Origin: a virus
Strand: one strand, 5' to 3'
DNA: 20,864 bases
Virus record (IMG/VR): IMGVR_UViG_3300042885_001110
Location: 1 to 20,864 of that record
Shown here: one piece after another, positions 1,061 through 11,598 of the stretch
Layout: each line of letters starts with the position of its first letter
How positions within the stretch are numbered: position 1 is the stretch's first letter
Notes under the pieces: generated by a model
Told to the model about the DNA's origin: nothing
Databases searched by the model: none
Seen by the model: only the letters and a program-made list of their open reading frames with translations
Position numbers and translations under genes: made by a program

Positions 1061-1092
1061 GACCCCTACCAGCAGAAAGAATTATTTTTCTT

Positions 1093-1143
1093 CCTATATA
1101 TATAGGACAACATTAATAAAAACATTGTCCTATGTATAATGCT
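1093..1143. repeat. Nested palindrome and long inverted repeat
   Basis: CCTATATATATAGG (1093-1106) is a perfect 14-bp palindrome. Its right half overlaps ATAGGACAA (1102-1110), which is an exact inverted repeat of TTGTCCTAT (1135-1143) across a 24-nt spacer. The two structures are mutually exclusive, so the site could switch between forms or bind a dimeric protein. Confidence 0.6.
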
Positions 1144-1149
1144 AATATA

Positions 1150-1179
1150 ATATCCCACCCAAAGATATATATCCCACCC
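1150..1179. repeat. Two direct copies of ATATCCCACCC
   Basis: The 11-mer occurs at 1150-1160 and 1169-1179, start to start 19 bp apart, close to two helical turns. The core CCCACCC also appears on the other strand as overlapping GGGTGGG motifs at 1885-1895. The spacing suggests a protein-binding iteron or operator. Confidence 0.55.
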
Positions 1180-1193
1180 TTATATATAATAAC

Positions 1194-1223
1194 AATAGCA
1201 AGCCCAATTAAGGACTCGCTATT
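1194..1223 (-). terminator. Terminator of the 133-aa gene, minus strand
   Basis: On the minus-strand RNA a 12-bp stem forms (AAUAGCGAGUCC with GGGCUUGCUAUU, two G-U pairs) around the loop UUAAUU. On the plus strand the same bases leave A-C mismatches, so the element is built for leftward transcription. The following tail is only partly U-rich (GUUAUUAUAU). It starts 7 nt after the stop at 1231. Confidence 0.75.
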
Positions 1224-1230
1224 TTACTAA

Positions 1231-1632
1231 TTAGAATGAAGCGTTAGTTAGTGCATTAATAGCACTCTCACTTAAGCCTGCTGATGTAGCTTGCGTTTTG
1301 ATTGTTTGTGCAATCTCAATGTCAAGCAATGCACTATCAGCGTGAGCTTGTGTAATTTCAGCTTTAGTTTTGAAAGCACTAAGAGCTGTTAATCTTTCAG
1401 ATGTTATTTCAACACCATTAGCGTCAACCTTAGCATTACCACTATCATCTAATGAACCAATCATTTTAGTTTCAGCAATGCAAAAGAATGGAAAAGTTAC
1501 TTCTTCATTCTTAGTCCAAGCTAATGCTTCCATTTGACGTTTGTGTAAGTGTACTCTAACACCAAGAGCTGTGTATCCACTAAAATTTCCATTTGCTGTA
1601 AAAGCACCATTGTTAATCACGTAATTTTTCAT
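1231..1632 (-). CDS. 133-aa protein, possibly abundant; function unknown
   Basis: This 133-residue minus-strand protein starts MKNYVINNGAFTANGNF. The first half has a strand-rich, aromatic/glycine pattern (NFSGYTALGVRVHLHKRQM, then EVTFPFFCIAETK). The second half is Ala- and Thr-rich helix, roughly residues 76-130. No catalytic motif is seen and no family is confidently recognised. Its codon use is less AT-biased than that of the other small genes here (GCG, GTC and AAC are used), which may mean strong expression. It has its own dedicated terminator. The position immediately left of the main divergent intergenic region suggests a gene controlled from that region. A single-stranded DNA-binding role could be imagined from the beta-rich half, but the evidence is too thin to call it. 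Confidence 0.7.
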   Translation of the reverse strand: MKNYVINNGAFTANGNFSGYTALGVRVHLHKRQMEALAWTKNEEVTFPFFCIAETKMIGSLDDSGNAKVDANGVEITSERLTALSAFKTKAEITQAHADSALLDIEIAQTIKTQATSAGLSESAINALTNASF

Positions 1633-1851
1633 TGTTTTTCTATTTTAAATTAATGTTTATATTCAGGAATATTCCCTGTTTGTTGAGAAGGTTTTGGGAT
1701 GGATGAGGATTTTTTGTATAAATTAATGTACCCCCCTACACAGCAACTAGGGGATAGGCCCAACTTCTGATTTGTTATGGGGGGTTTTGGTTGGGATAGG
1801 TATACTCTCCTATATACACCAGGGGTCTAAAATTTTGGGAAAAAATTTTTC

Positions 1852-1882
1852 TTGCCCATGTGAAAAATATGTTATAATTTTG
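1852..1882 (+). promoter_or_regulatory. Candidate Bacteroidota promoter, upstream of the pair
   Basis: TTG at 1852-1854, a 20-nt spacer, then TAATTTTG at 1875-1882, which matches the TAnnTTTG -7 element exactly. The -7 box overlaps the first G-run of the G-quadruplex candidate, so folding there could affect its use. Confidence 0.45.
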
Positions 1883-1949
1883 GAGGGTGGGTGGGTTGAG
1901 AGAATAAAAACACTTTTATATATTCTTTGTATACATAAGAAATAAAATA

Positions 1950-1983
1950 TTTGTTTATTATAATATTATTTTATATACCTTTG
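1950..1983 (+). promoter_or_regulatory. Candidate Bacteroidota promoter of the late operon
   Basis: TTTG at 1950-1953, a 22-nt AT-only spacer, then TACCTTTG at 1976-1983, a perfect TAnnTTTG -7 element. The first operon gene starts 17 nt after the -7 box, so the leader would be very short. The promoter candidate at 18391-18424 has the same spacing and nearly the same -7 box. Confidence 0.65.
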
Positions 1984-2000
1984 TATAAACCAAATAGATT

Positions 2001-2345
2001 ATGATTGTACAAAGATTTAAAAGAAAAGAGAAAGATGTATTTAATACAGCATTAAAGTATTATTCTATATTGTTTAGTGTTAATGGTATTAATGTAACAG
2101 AAAGAGAAATTCAATTAGTTTCTTTTATTGCTGTTAATGGGAGTATATCATATAAACATGTTAAAGAAGAATTCTGTAAAGAGTTTAATACATCTAATGC
2201 CACAATTAATAATTTAGTTAGCAGATTAAAGCAACTAGGAATATTAATTAAAGATGATGGCAAAATAAAAATACTTCCAGCTATACAATTAGATTTTTCT
2301 AAGAATATTGTTTTACAAATTACATTGGAGAATGAAACCACCTAA
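2001..2345 (+). CDS. Winged-helix DNA-binding protein
   Basis: This is a 114-residue protein. Residues about 36-94 read as a winged helix-turn-helix: a first helix (EREIQLVSFIAVNG), a second helix (YKHVKEEFCKEFN), a recognition helix (SNATINNLVSRLKQLGIL) and a wing (KDDGKIKILPAI). The N-terminus is basic (MIVQRFKRKEK). Such proteins are typically phage transcription regulators, but a winged helix upstream of a terminase operon may also be a DNA-packaging or replication factor. It is the first gene after the best promoter candidate, with a leader of about 10-17 nt. Its stop overlaps the next gene by 14 nt if that gene starts at 2332. The fold is read from the pattern; the role is inferred. Confidence 0.7.
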   Translation: MIVQRFKRKEKDVFNTALKYYSILFSVNGINVTEREIQLVSFIAVNGSISYKHVKEEFCKEFNTSNATINNLVSRLKQLGILIKDDGKIKILPAIQLDFSKNIVLQITLENETT

Positions 2346-2712
2346 TATGCATATTAAGGATTATCTTATTAAGAAGATTGCAGTTAATAAGGTGATTGAA
2401 AATAAACTCATTGCTGAGAAGATTATTCATAAAGTTATTGCTCATCAATTTGATTCTGCTAATGATGCTATACATAAATATAATAGTGTAGAATTTTCTG
2501 GATTTGGTAAGTTTATGTTTAATATGAGTAAAGCTAAAAAAAGAATGATTATATTTGAATCACAAATAGCTCATTTTACAGATTTCCTAAATGATGAAAC
2601 TCTTTCCCCTACAATTAGAAGAAACGCAGAAATGAAATTAGCAACAGCTATTGATAATAGAACAAAACTAAAACCAAAAATTGATCATGGGAGTGATACA
2701 ACAAATAATTGA
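2332..2712 (+). CDS. HU/IHF-like DNA-bending protein
   Basis: This is a 126-residue protein. Residues about 51-60 contain VEFSGFGKFMF, which matches the strand motif of the HU/IHF family (the conserved GFGxF before the DNA-binding beta-arm), preceded by a helix (SANDAIHKYNS) equivalent to the helix before that strand. The rest departs from bacterial HU: the N-terminus is a long amphipathic helix (IKDYLIKKIAVNKVIENKLIAEKII) and the arm region is replaced by a basic KAKKRM segment. IHF-like genes have been described in crAss-like phages, which fits this context. The start is uncertain: ATG 2332 has GGAG just upstream but overlaps the previous gene, while ATG 2347 directly follows that gene's stop and gives 121 residues. 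A further TTG start upstream is not preferred. Confidence 0.6.
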   Translation: MKPPNMHIKDYLIKKIAVNKVIENKLIAEKIIHKVIAHQFDSANDAIHKYNSVEFSGFGKFMFNMSKAKKRMIIFESQIAHFTDFLNDETLSPTIRRNAEMKLATAIDNRTKLKPKIDHGSDTTNN

Positions 2713-2974
2713 AGGATGGGGTAACCACCTTCTTCCTCGTAAAGAGCTAGAGTTAGTTATAGAGCAAACGAGTAAAGAGAGAATGGAGATATGTAACAAT
2801 TGTGAATATGTGTCTACAAAGCACAAAACATTAAGACTAGATGTACATTGCACAGATTGTGGATGTACATTAGCTGCTAAGACAAAGTGCCTTTCTTGTA
2901 ATTGCCCTAAGAATAAATGGACAGCTGTAATTTCTCAAGAACAACAAAATATAATTGACAATGGAAAAGAGTAA
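2687..2974 (+). CDS. Zinc-ribbon-type Cys-rich protein
   Basis: This is a 95-residue protein with eight cysteines clustered in the C-terminal half: CNNC near residue 36, then HCTDCGC, then CLSCNC. The pairing of CxxC knuckles suggests one or two zinc sites of zinc-ribbon or rubredoxin-like type. The N-terminal helix (IQQIIEGWGNHLLPRKELELVIEQTSKERMEIC, about residues 4-36, cited here by its ends) would pack against it. In phages such small zinc ribbons often bind nucleic acid or protein partners. ATG 2687 is chosen over a TTG codon at 2681. The gene overlaps its neighbours on both sides (26 nt before, 14 nt after), typical of a tightly coupled operon. Confidence 0.7.
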   Translation: MGVIQQIIEGWGNHLLPRKELELVIEQTSKERMEICNNCEYVSTKHKTLRLDVHCTDCGCTLAAKTKCLSCNCPKNKWTAVISQEQQNIIDNGKE

Positions 2975-3173
2975 TGTTAAATTGACAAAAATCCCAATTG
3001 AATATTTATTAGAAATATTAGAAACATTATATAATGAGGGATATGATTATTTTGATCTAGAAGGAATTATTGATCCAGATAAAGAGAAGGATACAATTAA
3101 GATTACAGTTTCAGAAGATTATCTTACAGAAGAAGATGAAAATAAATTAGATGATTATGAACAGCTATTATAA
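2961..3173 (+). CDS. Small acidic protein of unknown function
   Basis: This is a 70-residue, strongly acidic protein (starts MEKSNVKLTKIPIEYLL, ends NKLDDYEQLL). The predicted order is helix, acidic loop, short strand (DTIKITVS) and acidic helix. ATG 2961 is used rather than an in-frame TTG at 2955. It overlaps the zinc-ribbon gene by 14 nt and the next gene by 23 nt, so it is part of a translationally coupled chain. No family is recognised. Small acidic phage proteins can be DNA mimics or chaperones, but nothing here identifies such a role. Confidence 0.65.
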   Translation: MEKSNVKLTKIPIEYLLEILETLYNEGYDYFDLEGIIDPDKEKDTIKITVSEDYLTEEDENKLDDYEQLL

Positions 3174-3414
3174 AAGGAGTGTTAATGTATTAAATAAACT
3201 TAACACAATAATTCCAAAACAAACACTTGGTAGACATTTAGCCACAGCTCTAGATGATCATCAAATTGAGAATCTAAATGACAAAGAAATATTTAATATA
3301 TTAAATGATTATTTAATAGAACTAGAATCAGATGTTCCTCATTGTGAGGATTTGGAAGAAATTCTTAAACAAGGAATGAATTTAAATTCTGAGTATTTAA
3401 TAGAAGAAGAATAA
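3151..3414 (+). CDS. Small helical acidic protein, unknown function
   Basis: This is an 87-residue protein made mostly of predicted helices, with an acidic C-terminus (YLIEEE). Two Mets at residues 1 and 3 give starts at 3151 or 3157; both overlap the previous gene, so initiation probably depends on coupling. The basic N-terminal patch (YYKRSVNVLNKL) contrasts with the acidic rest (LNDYLIELESDVPHCEDLEEIL). No known family is recognised. It sits 7 nt upstream of the putative small terminase and shares its operon. Confidence 0.6.
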   Translation: MIMNSYYKRSVNVLNKLNTIIPKQTLGRHLATALDDHQIENLNDKEIFNILNDYLIELESDVPHCEDLEEILKQGMNLNSEYLIEEE

Positions 3415-3420
3415 CTACAT
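3413..3420 (+). promoter_or_regulatory. Leader motif AACTACAT
   Basis: AACTACAT lies 1 nt before the ATG at 3422. The same 8-mer sits 0 nt before the start at 8516 and 2 nt before the start at 11599. It is not a Shine-Dalgarno sequence; a role in start-site recognition is inferred from position alone. Confidence 0.35.
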
Positions 3421-3421
3421 T

Positions 3422-3757
3422 ATGGCAACAGCAAAAAAAGCTTTATTAATAGAATATGAATTAGAGTTTCTTGAGAAACAATTAGCAGAGCTAAAAGAAT
3501 ATATAGAGGCTAATCCTTATTCTACCCTTACAGATAGAATGCAATACAAAGAAACAAAGAATGGAGGAATGGTTTCTGTATGTGTAGCTAATAAGGAATC
3601 ACAAAGAAAAGACTTGACACAAGCTCTTAAAGACTATGCTGAGATTCTTAGAACAGTGGATTCTATGAGAGAGAAGCAAGAAGCTAAAGCAGTTCCTGTA
3701 AGAGGAGATGTACAGCTTGGGAGTATGGCTGAAGATTTCCTAAAAGGACGTAAATAA
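3422..3757 (+). CDS. Putative small terminase subunit or packaging cofactor
   Basis: This is a 111-residue, highly charged, mostly helical protein. Two predicted coiled-coil segments (about residues 8-32 and 60-92) flank a central glycine-containing turn (KETKNGGMVS). The C-terminus is basic (FLKGRK). Its stop overlaps the TerL start by one base (TAATG), the classic arrangement for a small/large terminase pair. Small terminases bind the packaging site and recruit TerL. No helix-turn-helix is obvious, so the identification rests on position, size and helical character. An alternative is a structural coiled-coil protein. The leader carries AACTACAT just before the ATG. Confidence 0.5.
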   Translation: MATAKKALLIEYELEFLEKQLAELKEYIEANPYSTLTDRMQYKETKNGGMVSVCVANKESQRKDLTQALKDYAEILRTVDSMREKQEAKAVPVRGDVQLGSMAEDFLKGRK

Positions 3758-5778
3758 TGAAACTACATAATATAGAATATAAGGATTGGTTTATTAATCA
3801 AGGGCGTATTCCAGATGAAGGTTCTGAGGAATATAGAGAATTCTTTAACTTCCACAAGGAGTTATGTATGAATGGGGCTATGATGGATGGACAATTTATA
3901 AATCCTTTTCTATATTGGCATTTAAATATTTGGCATACAGAGGTAGATATTATTGATGAATATGGACGTATTAATCAGAAATATGCCAACCCCCTGCTTA
4001 GGGATAATGAGTGGCTAGTAACAAATGAAATAGATAGAGCACACAAAGAAAAGAAAGGCCTAGTTATATTAGGTATTAGACGTTTTGCTAAATCAGTGTT
4101 AGAAGCTAGTTATATAGGACAGGGAGCTACATTTGATGAAAACTCACAGAATATTATTGCAGGACTGAATGCACCAGATATAAAGCTTATTACAGATAAG
4201 ATTGATAAAGGACTTAACTTTATTCCTAAAGCCTGGAGATGGCAAAGAGTGGAGGATAATTGGAAGAACCAAGTTACATTAGGGATCAAGACAAAAGCAG
4301 GAGAGAGAATCCCCTTTTCTCAGATACTTATTCGTAACTTAGATGGGGGTAATAATGAGGAAGCTATTGCAGGTACAAAACCTAGAAGACTTATTATTGA
4401 TGAGATTGGTAAAGGAAGTTTCCTTAGAGGACTACAAGCAGCAACACCTGGATTTACTACACCATTTGGATGGGGATGTTCTCCAATTCTTACAGGCACA
4501 GGTGGGGATATGAAGATGTTTATGGATGCTAAGAGTTTAATGTTTGACGTTGAAAACTTTAACTTTCTTGAATATAATAGTGCTAAAGATTCTTCAAAAG
4601 TACATGGTTTATTTATATCACATAAATATAGAATGGAAGCTAAAGAACAATCTTCTTTAGGAGCATTCTTAAACAAACCAGAAGGGTCTGCATTATATCA
4701 AGTTAATATGATGGTTAGTAATGAAGAGCTAGCTACAAAGATTACAAATGATAACCTTGACAAGCTTAAAAAAGCTGGAGATAGAATAGCATATTTAAAA
4801 GAAAAAATGTATTATCCTCAAGAAGTGGATGATATATTTCTTAATGAAGATACAAATATATTTGATATTGAAGCAGCTAAAAGACAGAAGTTCAGACTGT
4901 TACAACAAGAAAGAACAGGAACCTCTGTAGTGTTATATGATGATGGTGATGGAGTTAAACATACATTTTCTGATAAACTACCAATATCAAATTTTCCATT
5001 AAAGAGCTCTGATCAAAAAGATGCTCCTGTAGTTATATATGAATTCCCTGTAGAAAATCCAGCATATGGACTTTATGTAGCAGGAGTTGACCCTTATAGA
5101 CAAGGTAAATCTGCATATTCAAGTTCTCTTGGTTCTGTGTATATATACAAGCGTATGCATACAATATCAGGAGAGAAATACCAAGATATGTTTGTTGCTT
5201 CTTATTGTGCTCGTCCAGATAAGAAAGAAACATGGGAAGAACAAGCACGATATTTGATTAAGTATTACAATGCTAGAACATTGTGTGAGAATGATGAGAT
5301 ATCCTTTATAGATTACATGATAAGTAAAGGAGATGCACATTATTTAGAAAGACAACCAGATTGGTTAAAAGAAATAGTTCCTAATACAACAGTGAGAAGG
5401 GATTATGGAATACATAGATCTGCAGAAAAAATACGAGACTTCTTGCATGGATGTTTAAAAAAGTATACAGAAGAAGTTGTACATACAGAGAAGGATGAAG
5501 ATGGAAATACAATATCTGAAACCAAAGGAATGTCAAAAATATTTGACCCAGTTCTTTTAGAAGAAATGATTCAGTATAATGAAGATGGTAACTTTGATAG
5601 AATTATCGCAGCAGAGTTAGCAGTGGCATTAGCTATGAAACTTGATCCTATATTTGGTAAGATTGGAGACAACTCTGATTCAAGAACAAGTTCAATGGGA
5701 GTTAAAAGACAAAAAAGTTCACTCTTCCCTGAATCAAGAGGAGTGTTTAAAAGTAATAAACGTAAATTATTTAGATAA
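3757..5778 (+). CDS. terL: Terminase large subunit (TerL)
   Basis: This 673-residue protein is the ATP-driven motor and nuclease that packages DNA through the portal into the capsid. N-terminal ATPase: an atypical Walker A around residues 106-113 (GIRRFAKS), a Walker B with catalytic Glu at about 212-217 (LIIDEI), and a coupling-type TGTGG at about 246-250. C-terminal RNase H-like nuclease: likely metal-binding acids at D445 (AGVDPYR), E511/D513 (CENDE) and D614 (NFDRI). The Walker A lacks a classical GxxGxGKS loop but keeps KS, as many TerL proteins do. Length is normal to slightly long for the family. The start overlaps the upstream stop by one base, and the portal gene follows 1 nt after the stop. 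Family assignment is strong; specificity (headful or cos) cannot be read. Confidence 0.93.
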   Translation: MKLHNIEYKDWFINQGRIPDEGSEEYREFFNFHKELCMNGAMMDGQFINPFLYWHLNIWHTEVDIIDEYGRINQKYANPLLRDNEWLVTNEIDRAHKEKKGLVILGIRRFAKSVLEASYIGQGATFDENSQNIIAGLNAPDIKLITDKIDKGLNFIPKAWRWQRVEDNWKNQVTLGIKTKAGERIPFSQILIRNLDGGNNEEAIAGTKPRRLIIDEIGKGSFLRGLQAATPGFTTPFGWGCSPILTGTGGDMKMFMDAKSLMFDVENFNFLEYNSAKDSSKVHGLFISHKYRMEAKEQSSLGAFLNKPEGSALYQVNMMVSNEELATKITNDNLDKLKKAGDRIAYLKEKMYYPQEVDDIFLNEDTNIFDIEAAKRQKFRLLQQERTGTSVVLYDDGDGVKHTFSDKLPISNFPLKSSDQKDAPVVIYEFPVENPAYGLYVAGVDPYRQGKSAYSSSLGSVYIYKRMHTISGEKYQDMFVASYCARPDKKETWEEQARYLIKYYNARTLCENDEISFIDYMISKGDAHYLERQPDWLKEIVPNTTVRRDYGIHRSAEKIRDFLHGCLKKYTEEVVHTEKDEDGNTISETKGMSKIFDPVLLEEMIQYNEDGNFDRIIAAELAVALAMKLDPIFGKIGDNSDSRTSSMGVKRQKSSLFPESRGVFKSNKRKLFR

Positions 5779-8368: not shown

Positions 8369-8407
8369 CAAAAAAAGTTAGAAATTAAGAAGAATAAAAA
8401 AACATAA

Positions 8408-8455
8408 TGCTATATTACCCAACAATAATAAAGGATATAGCAGTATTTTCTTTTG
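8408..8455 (+). terminator. Weak terminator-like hairpin after portal gene
   Basis: TGCTATAT (8408-8415) pairs perfectly with ATATAGCA (8435-8442), followed by GTATTTTCTTTTG. The loop is about 19 nt, larger than usual, so termination may be inefficient. It lies 40 nt past the portal stop. Confidence 0.4.
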
Positions 8456-11371: not shown

Positions 11372-11381
11372 TAATAACAGT

Positions 11382-11561
11382 AGTTACTACGCCAAGAAGA
11401 ATAATAACTTATATCAAGTTGTAGGCGTACCAGAGTAACTCATCTATCTGAGAAAGATCCCCTCGTACCCACTCCCTCCTAGAGGGGATTGATCTCAAAC
11501 AGAGTGATGAATACTAGACTCCATGTCTGTATTGCATTCCCTTCGATGGGAACATTCTGCA
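11382..11561 (+). ncRNA. Candidate structured RNA after the capsid gene
   Basis: This 180-nt segment has no ORF and is almost entirely paired when folded by eye. P1: AGTTAC/GTAACT (11382-11387, 11435-11440) continued by TACGCC/GGCGTA (11388-11393, 11424-11429) with a 5-nt 3' bulge, and AACTT/AAGTT capping it (11406-11420). P2: TGAGA/TCTCA plus GATCCCCTC/GAGGGGATT (11449-11497), separated by a 2x2 internal loop, with a pyrimidine-rich loop. P3: ATAC(T)AGAC/GTCTGTAT (11511-11532). P4: TGCA/TGCA plus TTCCC/GGGAA (11533-11561), again with a 5-nt 3' bulge. It is clearly less AT-rich than flanking DNA. It lacks a terminal U-run, so it is not a plain terminator. The function is unknown; a stand-alone RNA, an mRNA-stabilising element or a leader for the next gene are all open. 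Confidence 0.6.
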
Positions 11562-11588
11562 AAATATAAAACCAAACATTAATTAAAT

Positions 11589-11596
11589 AACTACAT
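11589..11596 (+). promoter_or_regulatory. Leader motif AACTACAT
   Basis: This is the third copy of the 8-mer, 2 nt before the ATG at 11599 and just downstream of the structured RNA candidate. Confidence 0.35.
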
Positions 11597-11598
11597 TT

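Follow-up and report, generated by a model that had tools for sequence, protein, structure and literature searches.

The window, by which we mean the whole stretch of DNA analysed here, is an entire virus record of 20,864 bases. Within it, a region of 368 bp (positions 1633-2000) parts leftward genes, the nearest of which occupies 1231-1632 on the minus strand, from a rightward group that opens at 2001-2345 and includes the large terminase subunit (TerL) at 3757-5778, as a preliminary description made from the letters alone had held. The places which that description assigned to a run of six C, a run of six G, four successive G runs at 1882-1895, a CCCCTA/TAGGGG hairpin and an A/T dyad are likewise confirmed, and the features referred to below are these (G-box coordinates are from the window, the relatives' forms from alignment):

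1151-1188, minus strand: left quadruplex motif TATATATAAGGGTGGGATATATATCTTTGGGTGGGATA, behind the hairpin that trails the first leftward gene
1197-1220, minus strand: terminator-like hairpin of 9 bp behind the first leftward gene, -13.8 kcal/mol
1231-1632, minus strand: first leftward gene, 133 aa
1731-1736: C6, the only C run of six in the window
1733-1761, plus strand: hairpin area, with CCCCTA at 1733-1738 and TAGGGG at 1748-1753, plus GGGGATAGGCCC at 1750-1761
1779-1784: G6, the only G run of six in the window
1779-1826, plus strand: G boxes, namely GGGGGGT (GTGGGGT in relatives), GGGATAGGT at 1793-1801 (often GGAGTGGTC in relatives) and CACCAGGGG at 1817-1825 (often ACACACGATGGGT in relatives)
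1829-1850, plus strand: A/T-tract block (dyad) AAAATTTTGGGAAAAAATTTTT, upstream of P_R1
1852-1882, plus strand: P_R1, predicted promoter of the rightward arm, with TTG at 1852-1854, 20 nt, and the -7 box TAATTTTG at 1875-1882
1882-1895, plus strand: G run GGAGGGTGGGTGGG, the right quadruplex motif
1950-1983, plus strand: P_R2, second predicted promoter, just before the gene at 2001, with TTTG at 1950-1953, 22 nt, and TACCTTTG at 1976-1983
2001-2345, plus strand: winged-helix DNA-binding protein, first rightward gene (Pfam HTH_Mga, 23.4 bits, cut-off 23)
2341-2712, plus strand: HU/IHF-like DNA-binding protein (PF00216, E 2.8e-5, 24.7 bits, cut-off 22.4)
3757-5778, plus strand: terminase large subunit (phrog_6681)

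We read the window as a fragment of an environmental crAss-like phage, because its TerL and capsid proteins match phrog_6681 (E 2.1e-79) and phrog_11589, respectively, and because a crAss muzzle protein is encoded in the relative G016 (PF25731 crAss_MUZ, E 3.3e-35); the marks of Crassvirales, a crAss-type TerL, capsid and muzzle protein, are thus all found, the last of them in that relative, whose ORFs of 1621, 2230 and 4287 aa include the muzzle match as the second. Among the 20 listed of 90 records, the closest named TerL is that of Leptolyngbya phage Lbo-JY46 (39.7% identity), followed by csAssE-Sib and Cellulophaga phi17:2/phi4:1 (30-31%), and the crAss-like records among them stand at about 26-31%. 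A TerL search with Lbo-JY46 led to one locus, L202, and the relatives examined reach, at their longest, record lengths of 98-119 kb. In a collection of named phages, the DNA of window 1231-3800 found no match, a relative's region found 4 weak partial ones (E 0.1-5), and the first rightward protein had none at E 0.1. The window contains no tRNA and no Rfam match at gathering score, and the matches listed for its proteins include no small terminase.

The first rightward protein has a predicted model of pLDDT 92.4, whose structure matches are generically winged-helix, none with a Foldseek E below 0.001. A MotA-like activator was considered and set aside as one of many winged-helix matches and only a lead: the T4 MotA activation domain (1bja) was found by Foldseek with probability 1.00, E 0.056 and TM 0.52/0.61, and VIA-align gave MotA a Z of 7.1 (rmsd 6.9) as against a best Z of 9.1 for a zinc uptake regulator. 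Of the 80 TerL loci, 74 encode a relative of this protein and 6 break off before the gene is reached. No PHROGs or Pfam family matches the first leftward gene, whose relatives occur in 14 of the 80 TerL loci (11 of 49 if only loci with over 1500 nt to the left of the first rightward gene are counted). In a separate observation, different first leftward genes in L006 and L014 (and, with one change, L026) share a TAAAAAACAGAAA-like leader before their ATG, as if the gene had been swapped behind a fixed leader.

Promoters, G run and upstream blocks

P_R1 carries both elements of a Bacteroidota sigma-A promoter, a TAnnTTTG -7 box and a -33 TTG at a spacer of 20 (about 19-23 nt being expected), and the boxes and their spacing are alike at P_R2, for which +1 is predicted at 1988 with a leader of 13 nt. 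What distinguishes P_R1 from such a promoter is that it runs straight into a four-tract G run that holds the predicted start: the run begins at the last base of the -7 box and continues as G-A-GGG-T-GGG-T-GGG. Host promoters are not known to obey any rule of a joined four-tract G run at the start. Because the TAnnTTTG box of Flavobacterium psychrophilum lies at -12 to -5 (PMC9723704), the +1 of P_R1 is predicted at 1887, inside the G run, provided that the box is placed in the same way here; an RNA beginning there would hold no more than one G and two full G3 tracts. The stretch at 1882-1895 agrees with the relaxed quadruplex motif (four tracts of at least 2 G, short loops) and departs from the canonical one (four tracts of at least 3 G, loops of 1-7) in its first tract, which is GG.

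The view that the homopolymers of the region stand out is borne out for the four-tract G run, which arose in 11 of 2000 dinucleotide shuffles of the 368-bp region and whose pattern appeared in none of 100 shuffles taken over the full length of the window, but not for C6 and G6, which are ordinary for the region's composition, being common in the same 2000 dinucleotide shuffles (257 and 926, respectively).

Further upstream, the CCCCTA/TAGGGG hairpin is not kept as such; at the matching place most aligned relatives have hairpins resembling GGGG-nnTA-CCCC, of which GGGGATAGGCCC is the window's version. The notion that these upstream blocks form a conserved structured RNA was rejected, since RNAalifold returned only a 3-bp hairpin on one strand, nothing on the other and virtually no covariation for 50 aligned upstream regions, in an alignment with many gaps from which 9 of 64 regions lacking the hairpin pattern were left out.

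The G run and the left motif in relatives

A search with TerL retained 80 of 481 loci and yielded a close set of 67 distinct upstream regions (window included, 8 duplicates removed), 66 of them testable, L078 being too short. A G-rich run stands directly behind TTTGG in 64 of the 66, the exceptions being L029 and L048, in which no promoter-joined G run was found. The TA of the -7 box is present in 63 of these 64 regions; a TTTG lies 21 nt upstream (TTTG-N21-TAnnTTTG) in 48 and a TTTG or TTG at other spacings within 18-24 nt in 10, making 58 in all, with no -33 match in the other 6. Four G tracts are seen in the viewed stretch of 63 of the 64, and the exception, L067, reads G7-ATAAA-G7 in a longer alignment.

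The set was widened with an alignment of the first rightward protein, for which 80 of 339 loci were kept, 40 of them new and distinct. A narrow pattern detects the promoter-joined run in 25 of these 40, and reading the remainder by eye adds further forms such as TAACTTTGGGGGGGATTTAGGGGGGG. When the criterion is broadened to 10 or more G within 20 positions behind TTTG or TTAG and applied to the pooled set, in which 6 loci were too short, 94 of the 101 distinct loci that could be tested carry the run; the opposite strand satisfies it in 11 of the 101 and shuffled sequence in 1. TA stands two bases before TTTG in 89 of the 94 and is absent at the expected place in 5. These 94 comprise 47 distinct 18-mers, all of which hold four tracts (at least 2 G, loops 1-5) where composition shuffles expect 29.9, in counts that ignore relatedness and that concern loci chosen, like the 64 of the close set, by their G content before tracts were counted. 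The comparison with relatives that the preliminary description had suggested therefore finds the G run kept in most of them, and its four tracts kept with it. The canonical G3 rule holds in 3 of the 47 versions within the 18 nt examined, most having a first tract of only GG.

Loops, tract lengths and register vary among these versions, as GGTGGGTGGGTGGG, GGGGTGGTGGTTGGG, GAGGGCGGAGGGTGGG and GGGGGGGATTTAGGGGGG illustrate, and this variation bears on the idea that the run is a G-rich duplex site at which a phage protein, for instance the winged-helix protein of 2001, represses or activates P_R1. A DNA-binding protein is indeed encoded directly next to the run, and then an HU/IHF-like one; a register, tract length and loops that differ between lineages, together with a central spacer of 3-23 nt in the left motif described below, are nevertheless unlike a site read by a rigid protein, and we regard this explanation as very improbable.

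The seven loci in which the broad criterion detects no run are L029, L048, L207, L218, L238, L267 and L268, L207 having a G-rich run 402 nt upstream without TTTG. Since these seven are without it, and since the narrow pattern finds it in only 25 of the 40 new loci, the promoter-joined G run is, as judged from these sequences, not essential in all relatives. TerL identity in the wider set falls to 31-38% (over a partial stretch), and at that distance the run is found in L206, L234 and L270 and not in L238 or L267.

Losses and rearrangements also reveal to what the run is attached. L218, L238, L267 and L268 keep the hairpin and G-box sequence and the proximal TAnnTTTG box without a promoter-joined G run; in L207 and L270, conversely, rightward tRNA genes lie directly to the left of the G run and replace the divergent block, and in L269 tRNA genes flank it on both sides. 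Because blocks and run are separable in this way, the G run appears tied to the rightward promoter and not to the upstream block. The rightward tRNA genes near the run are located at 506-811 in L207 (3 genes), at 1066-1383 and 2157-2228 in L269 (4) and at 59-1982 in L270 (16).

Specificity was assessed by scanning both strands of IMG/VR for the pattern T-N3-TTTGG-N-GGGTGGGTGGG, which occurs in 83 stretches. In 72 of them the same first gene follows 74-403 nt downstream in the same direction, so that the G run is on the coding strand in 72 of the 72 matches with the first gene in view; 3 end before the gene, 48-138 bases after the motif, yet carry the same promoter, and 8 have no match to the query genes and look unrelated. 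The pattern occurs once per record in 17 of 20 long records, and the other three (G004, G006 and G008) hold the loci L029, L043 and L062, in which the run is absent or variant. GTDB genome contigs contain no match to the promoter-plus-G-run pattern.

A comparable motif is found on the left. Its general form is TATATATA(A)-GGGTGGG-N3..23-GGGT(T)GGG, and in the window it is also a 19-bp direct repeat. Of the 48 close loci that extend far enough, 36 have the form, as do 17 of 33 newly added ones. In the pooled set, 54 of 88 loci have it on the coding strand of the leftward genes, with its tracts kept and a central loop of 3-23 nt; neither the other strand nor shuffled sequence yields it in any of the 88, and 46 loci have both this motif and the right G run. 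In six whole genomes, GGGTGGG is largely confined to the two motif places: G003 and G011 have no copy elsewhere, G009 has the right-hand copy plus one more, and G005, G013 and G016 each have two or three further copies. As a side observation, the left non-coding stretch (window 1090-1140, minus strand; G003, G009, G011) contains repeated CCTATATATATAGG-like palindromes, which in relatives adjoin AAAAGTTT words.

The strand preference of both motifs would be expected if the G run were selected in RNA, as a quadruplex shielding the 5' end of the long late mRNA or serving to load an antitermination factor, with the left motif doing the same leftward; each motif, moreover, faces one long arm. HK022 put and lambda nut offer the comparison for antitermination loading. 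Two observations speak against such a device, namely that a transcript starting at 1887 would retain the few G tracts given above, and that a TAnnTTTG box is absent before most left motifs, and we consider it decidedly unlikely.

Genome arms, GC skew and record ends

In the six whole genomes, three of which have end repeats of 107-461 bp and three of which have none, the place of the G run divides a rightward arm of about 71-86 kb with structural genes from a leftward arm of 28-43 kb with replication genes, DnaB-, DnaG- and RecA-like genes being found in the leftward arm of G016. Structural and replication gene blocks are likewise described for Crassvirales (PMC10136315, PMC7886860), to which the muzzle protein of the relative adds a further likeness; within the main text of these two articles the word 'promoter' is absent. 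From its gene content and from the work on crAss001 and phi14:2 recounted in PMC10136315, we infer that the rightward arm carries the late genes.

A change in cumulative GC skew, which the preliminary description had named as a check, is present at the region, the lowest bin of the window being 1251-1750. In the six genomes, with the sum started at the G run, cumulative skew climbs to the convergent junction and drops back towards the run, its minimum lying at the run in five and 260 bp to its left in G003. Real as it is, this turn goes with the strand of the genes. The lone minus-strand genes of the rightward arm show a negative plus-strand skew in 5 of the 6 genomes (the opposite sign in G009 comes from an ORF that looks spurious), and in 4 of these 5 the result holds at third codon positions, G016 being the exception. 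We therefore rejected the skew turn as proof of an origin.

An origin of replication, with the G boxes and the A/T block as initiator sites and unwinding element and with a priming R-loop held in the G run, would be served by the place of the skew minimum, by the conserved blocks upstream of the run and by the replication genes of the leftward arm of G016. R-loop priming has models in T4 oriF, ColE1 RNA II and mitochondrial CSB II, the last two of which have a G-rich transcript or non-template strand near a promoter that can hold an RNA:DNA hybrid. P_R1 resembles CSB II and ColE1 RNA II in its G-rich non-template strand near a promoter, and differs from them in showing no sign of priming or of an origin. 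Against an origin stand the dependence of the skew on gene strand, the survival of the upstream blocks without the run in L218, L238, L267 and L268, and the run of L270 with its rightward tRNA genes on the left; no initiator or iteron array was found in the sequences. With its parts separable in this manner and its skew turn following gene strand, the origin that the preliminary description had entertained gains no independent support here and is weakened, and we think it possible but rather unlikely.

The same description had also raised a terminase recognition site (cos, terminal-repeat boundary or pac), and the region does lie 1.9 kb upstream of terL. In addition, 36 of 75 loci have a contig end between 0.1 and 3.1 kb ahead of the first rightward gene (48 had been flagged, and 12 were set aside as flagged only since their TerL match starts at residue 3). 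These ends, however, are at no fixed distance from either the right or the left motif and could just reflect the boundary with the variable leftward genes, of which the 11 of 49 loci with a relative of the first leftward gene are an indication. In all 17 of the records of 98-119 kb that have the motif, the sequence continues through the site and the nearest end is more than 7 kb away; these are ends of assemblies rather than of virion DNA, and the assemblies were chosen for length, which favours distant ends. A terminase site with fixed ends is accordingly disfavoured, and a terminase site of any kind seems to us extremely improbable.

Proposed control of the rightward arm

At a probability of roughly 0.55, we read the region as the divergent control region of a crAss-like phage, in which a late promoter would have its output tuned by a quadruplex or an R-loop. 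As shown by sequence comparison, a promoter of host type (sigma-A, Bacteroidota) faces the structural-gene arm, with its -7 box joined to a four-tract run; the keeping of this run in most relatives while its letters change suggests that it helps to control the late genes, which are thought to use the host RNA polymerase in crAss phages (PMC10136315).

In the mechanism that we propose, transcription would start inside the G run, and during initiation the non-template strand would therefore expose its G tracts while the C tracts of the template pair with a nascent RNA that is itself G-rich. A quadruplex, formed by the DNA alone or shared between DNA and RNA, might then hold the R-loop open, and the R-loop might alter promoter escape or re-initiation and so set the timing or the strength of late transcription. 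An ordinary start would be provided by P_R2, which lies some 100 bp further downstream, and the left motif may act likewise for the leftward arm. It is the start site, the folding, the R-loop and the effect on late genes that we infer in this scheme, and similar traces could be left by a protein that binds G-rich DNA or by RNA slippage on the G tracts.

Precedents for the individual steps come from systems with non-template G tracts near a transcription start. A non-template quadruplex sequence behind the start raised the output of T7 RNA polymerase via R-loops in vitro (PMC7341879); where the DNA was supercoiled, such a sequence caused an initial burst and then suppression (PMC11982182); and DNA:RNA hybrid quadruplexes can form near starts (PMC7198591). 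Those systems are in-vitro transcription or animal genomes, whereas P_R1 is a predicted promoter of a natural phage, and its run, unlike theirs, is joined to the -7 box and is single-copy in matching long records. Searches of open-licence PubMed Central text found no paper pairing 'crAss-like' with 'G-quadruplex' and, among the matches listed, no description of a promoter-joined G-run element.

The interpretation in the preliminary description is thus partly supported, a G-quadruplex-controlled promoter having the most support of its three options, owing to the Bacteroidota promoter joined to the run and to the four tracts kept in it; that quadruplex folding controls the promoter is a prediction. 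A broader and more speculative proposal, which we hold to be unlikely, is that the divergent pair of quadruplex motifs, one near the start of each arm, constitutes a DNA-topology switch, whereby the late promoter would fire freely on incoming or relaxed DNA and be throttled or held open by a quadruplex or R-loop on supercoiled DNA, the same R-loop being usable to prime replication. If this were true, it would amount to a conserved quadruplex-coupled early/late switch in a phage order for which a 2023 review calls the start of replication unknown (PMC10136315). With its clear promoter boxes, its numerous natural variants and its several natural losses, this short element offers, in either event, a direct test case in laboratory strains for the question whether selection in phages and bacteria favours quadruplexes at the start of transcription.

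Two other elements were noticed in the course of these comparisons. A near-palindromic box, ATGC-TATATTAT-GCAT (ATAATATAGCAT), lies between P_R1 and the first gene in 6 of 6 whole genomes and again between the portal gene and the next gene in all 6; G003 has it at +127 and minus 57895 relative to the G run. It also occurs, about 57 bp ahead of the lone minus gene, in G003, G011 and G016 and, in a weaker form, in G005 and G013. The window has a copy with 1 mismatch at 8407-8418 on the minus strand and no clear copy before its first rightward gene, and the box looks like an operator or activator site. Behind the capsid gene, the non-coding stretch at 11372-11598 has no Rfam match and contains strong predicted hairpins (-61.1 kcal/mol for 227 nt, a value without shuffle control); it has a counterpart about 9.7-10.2 kb to the right of the G run in the six genomes, with similar stretches in relatives, and may possibly be a structured RNA.
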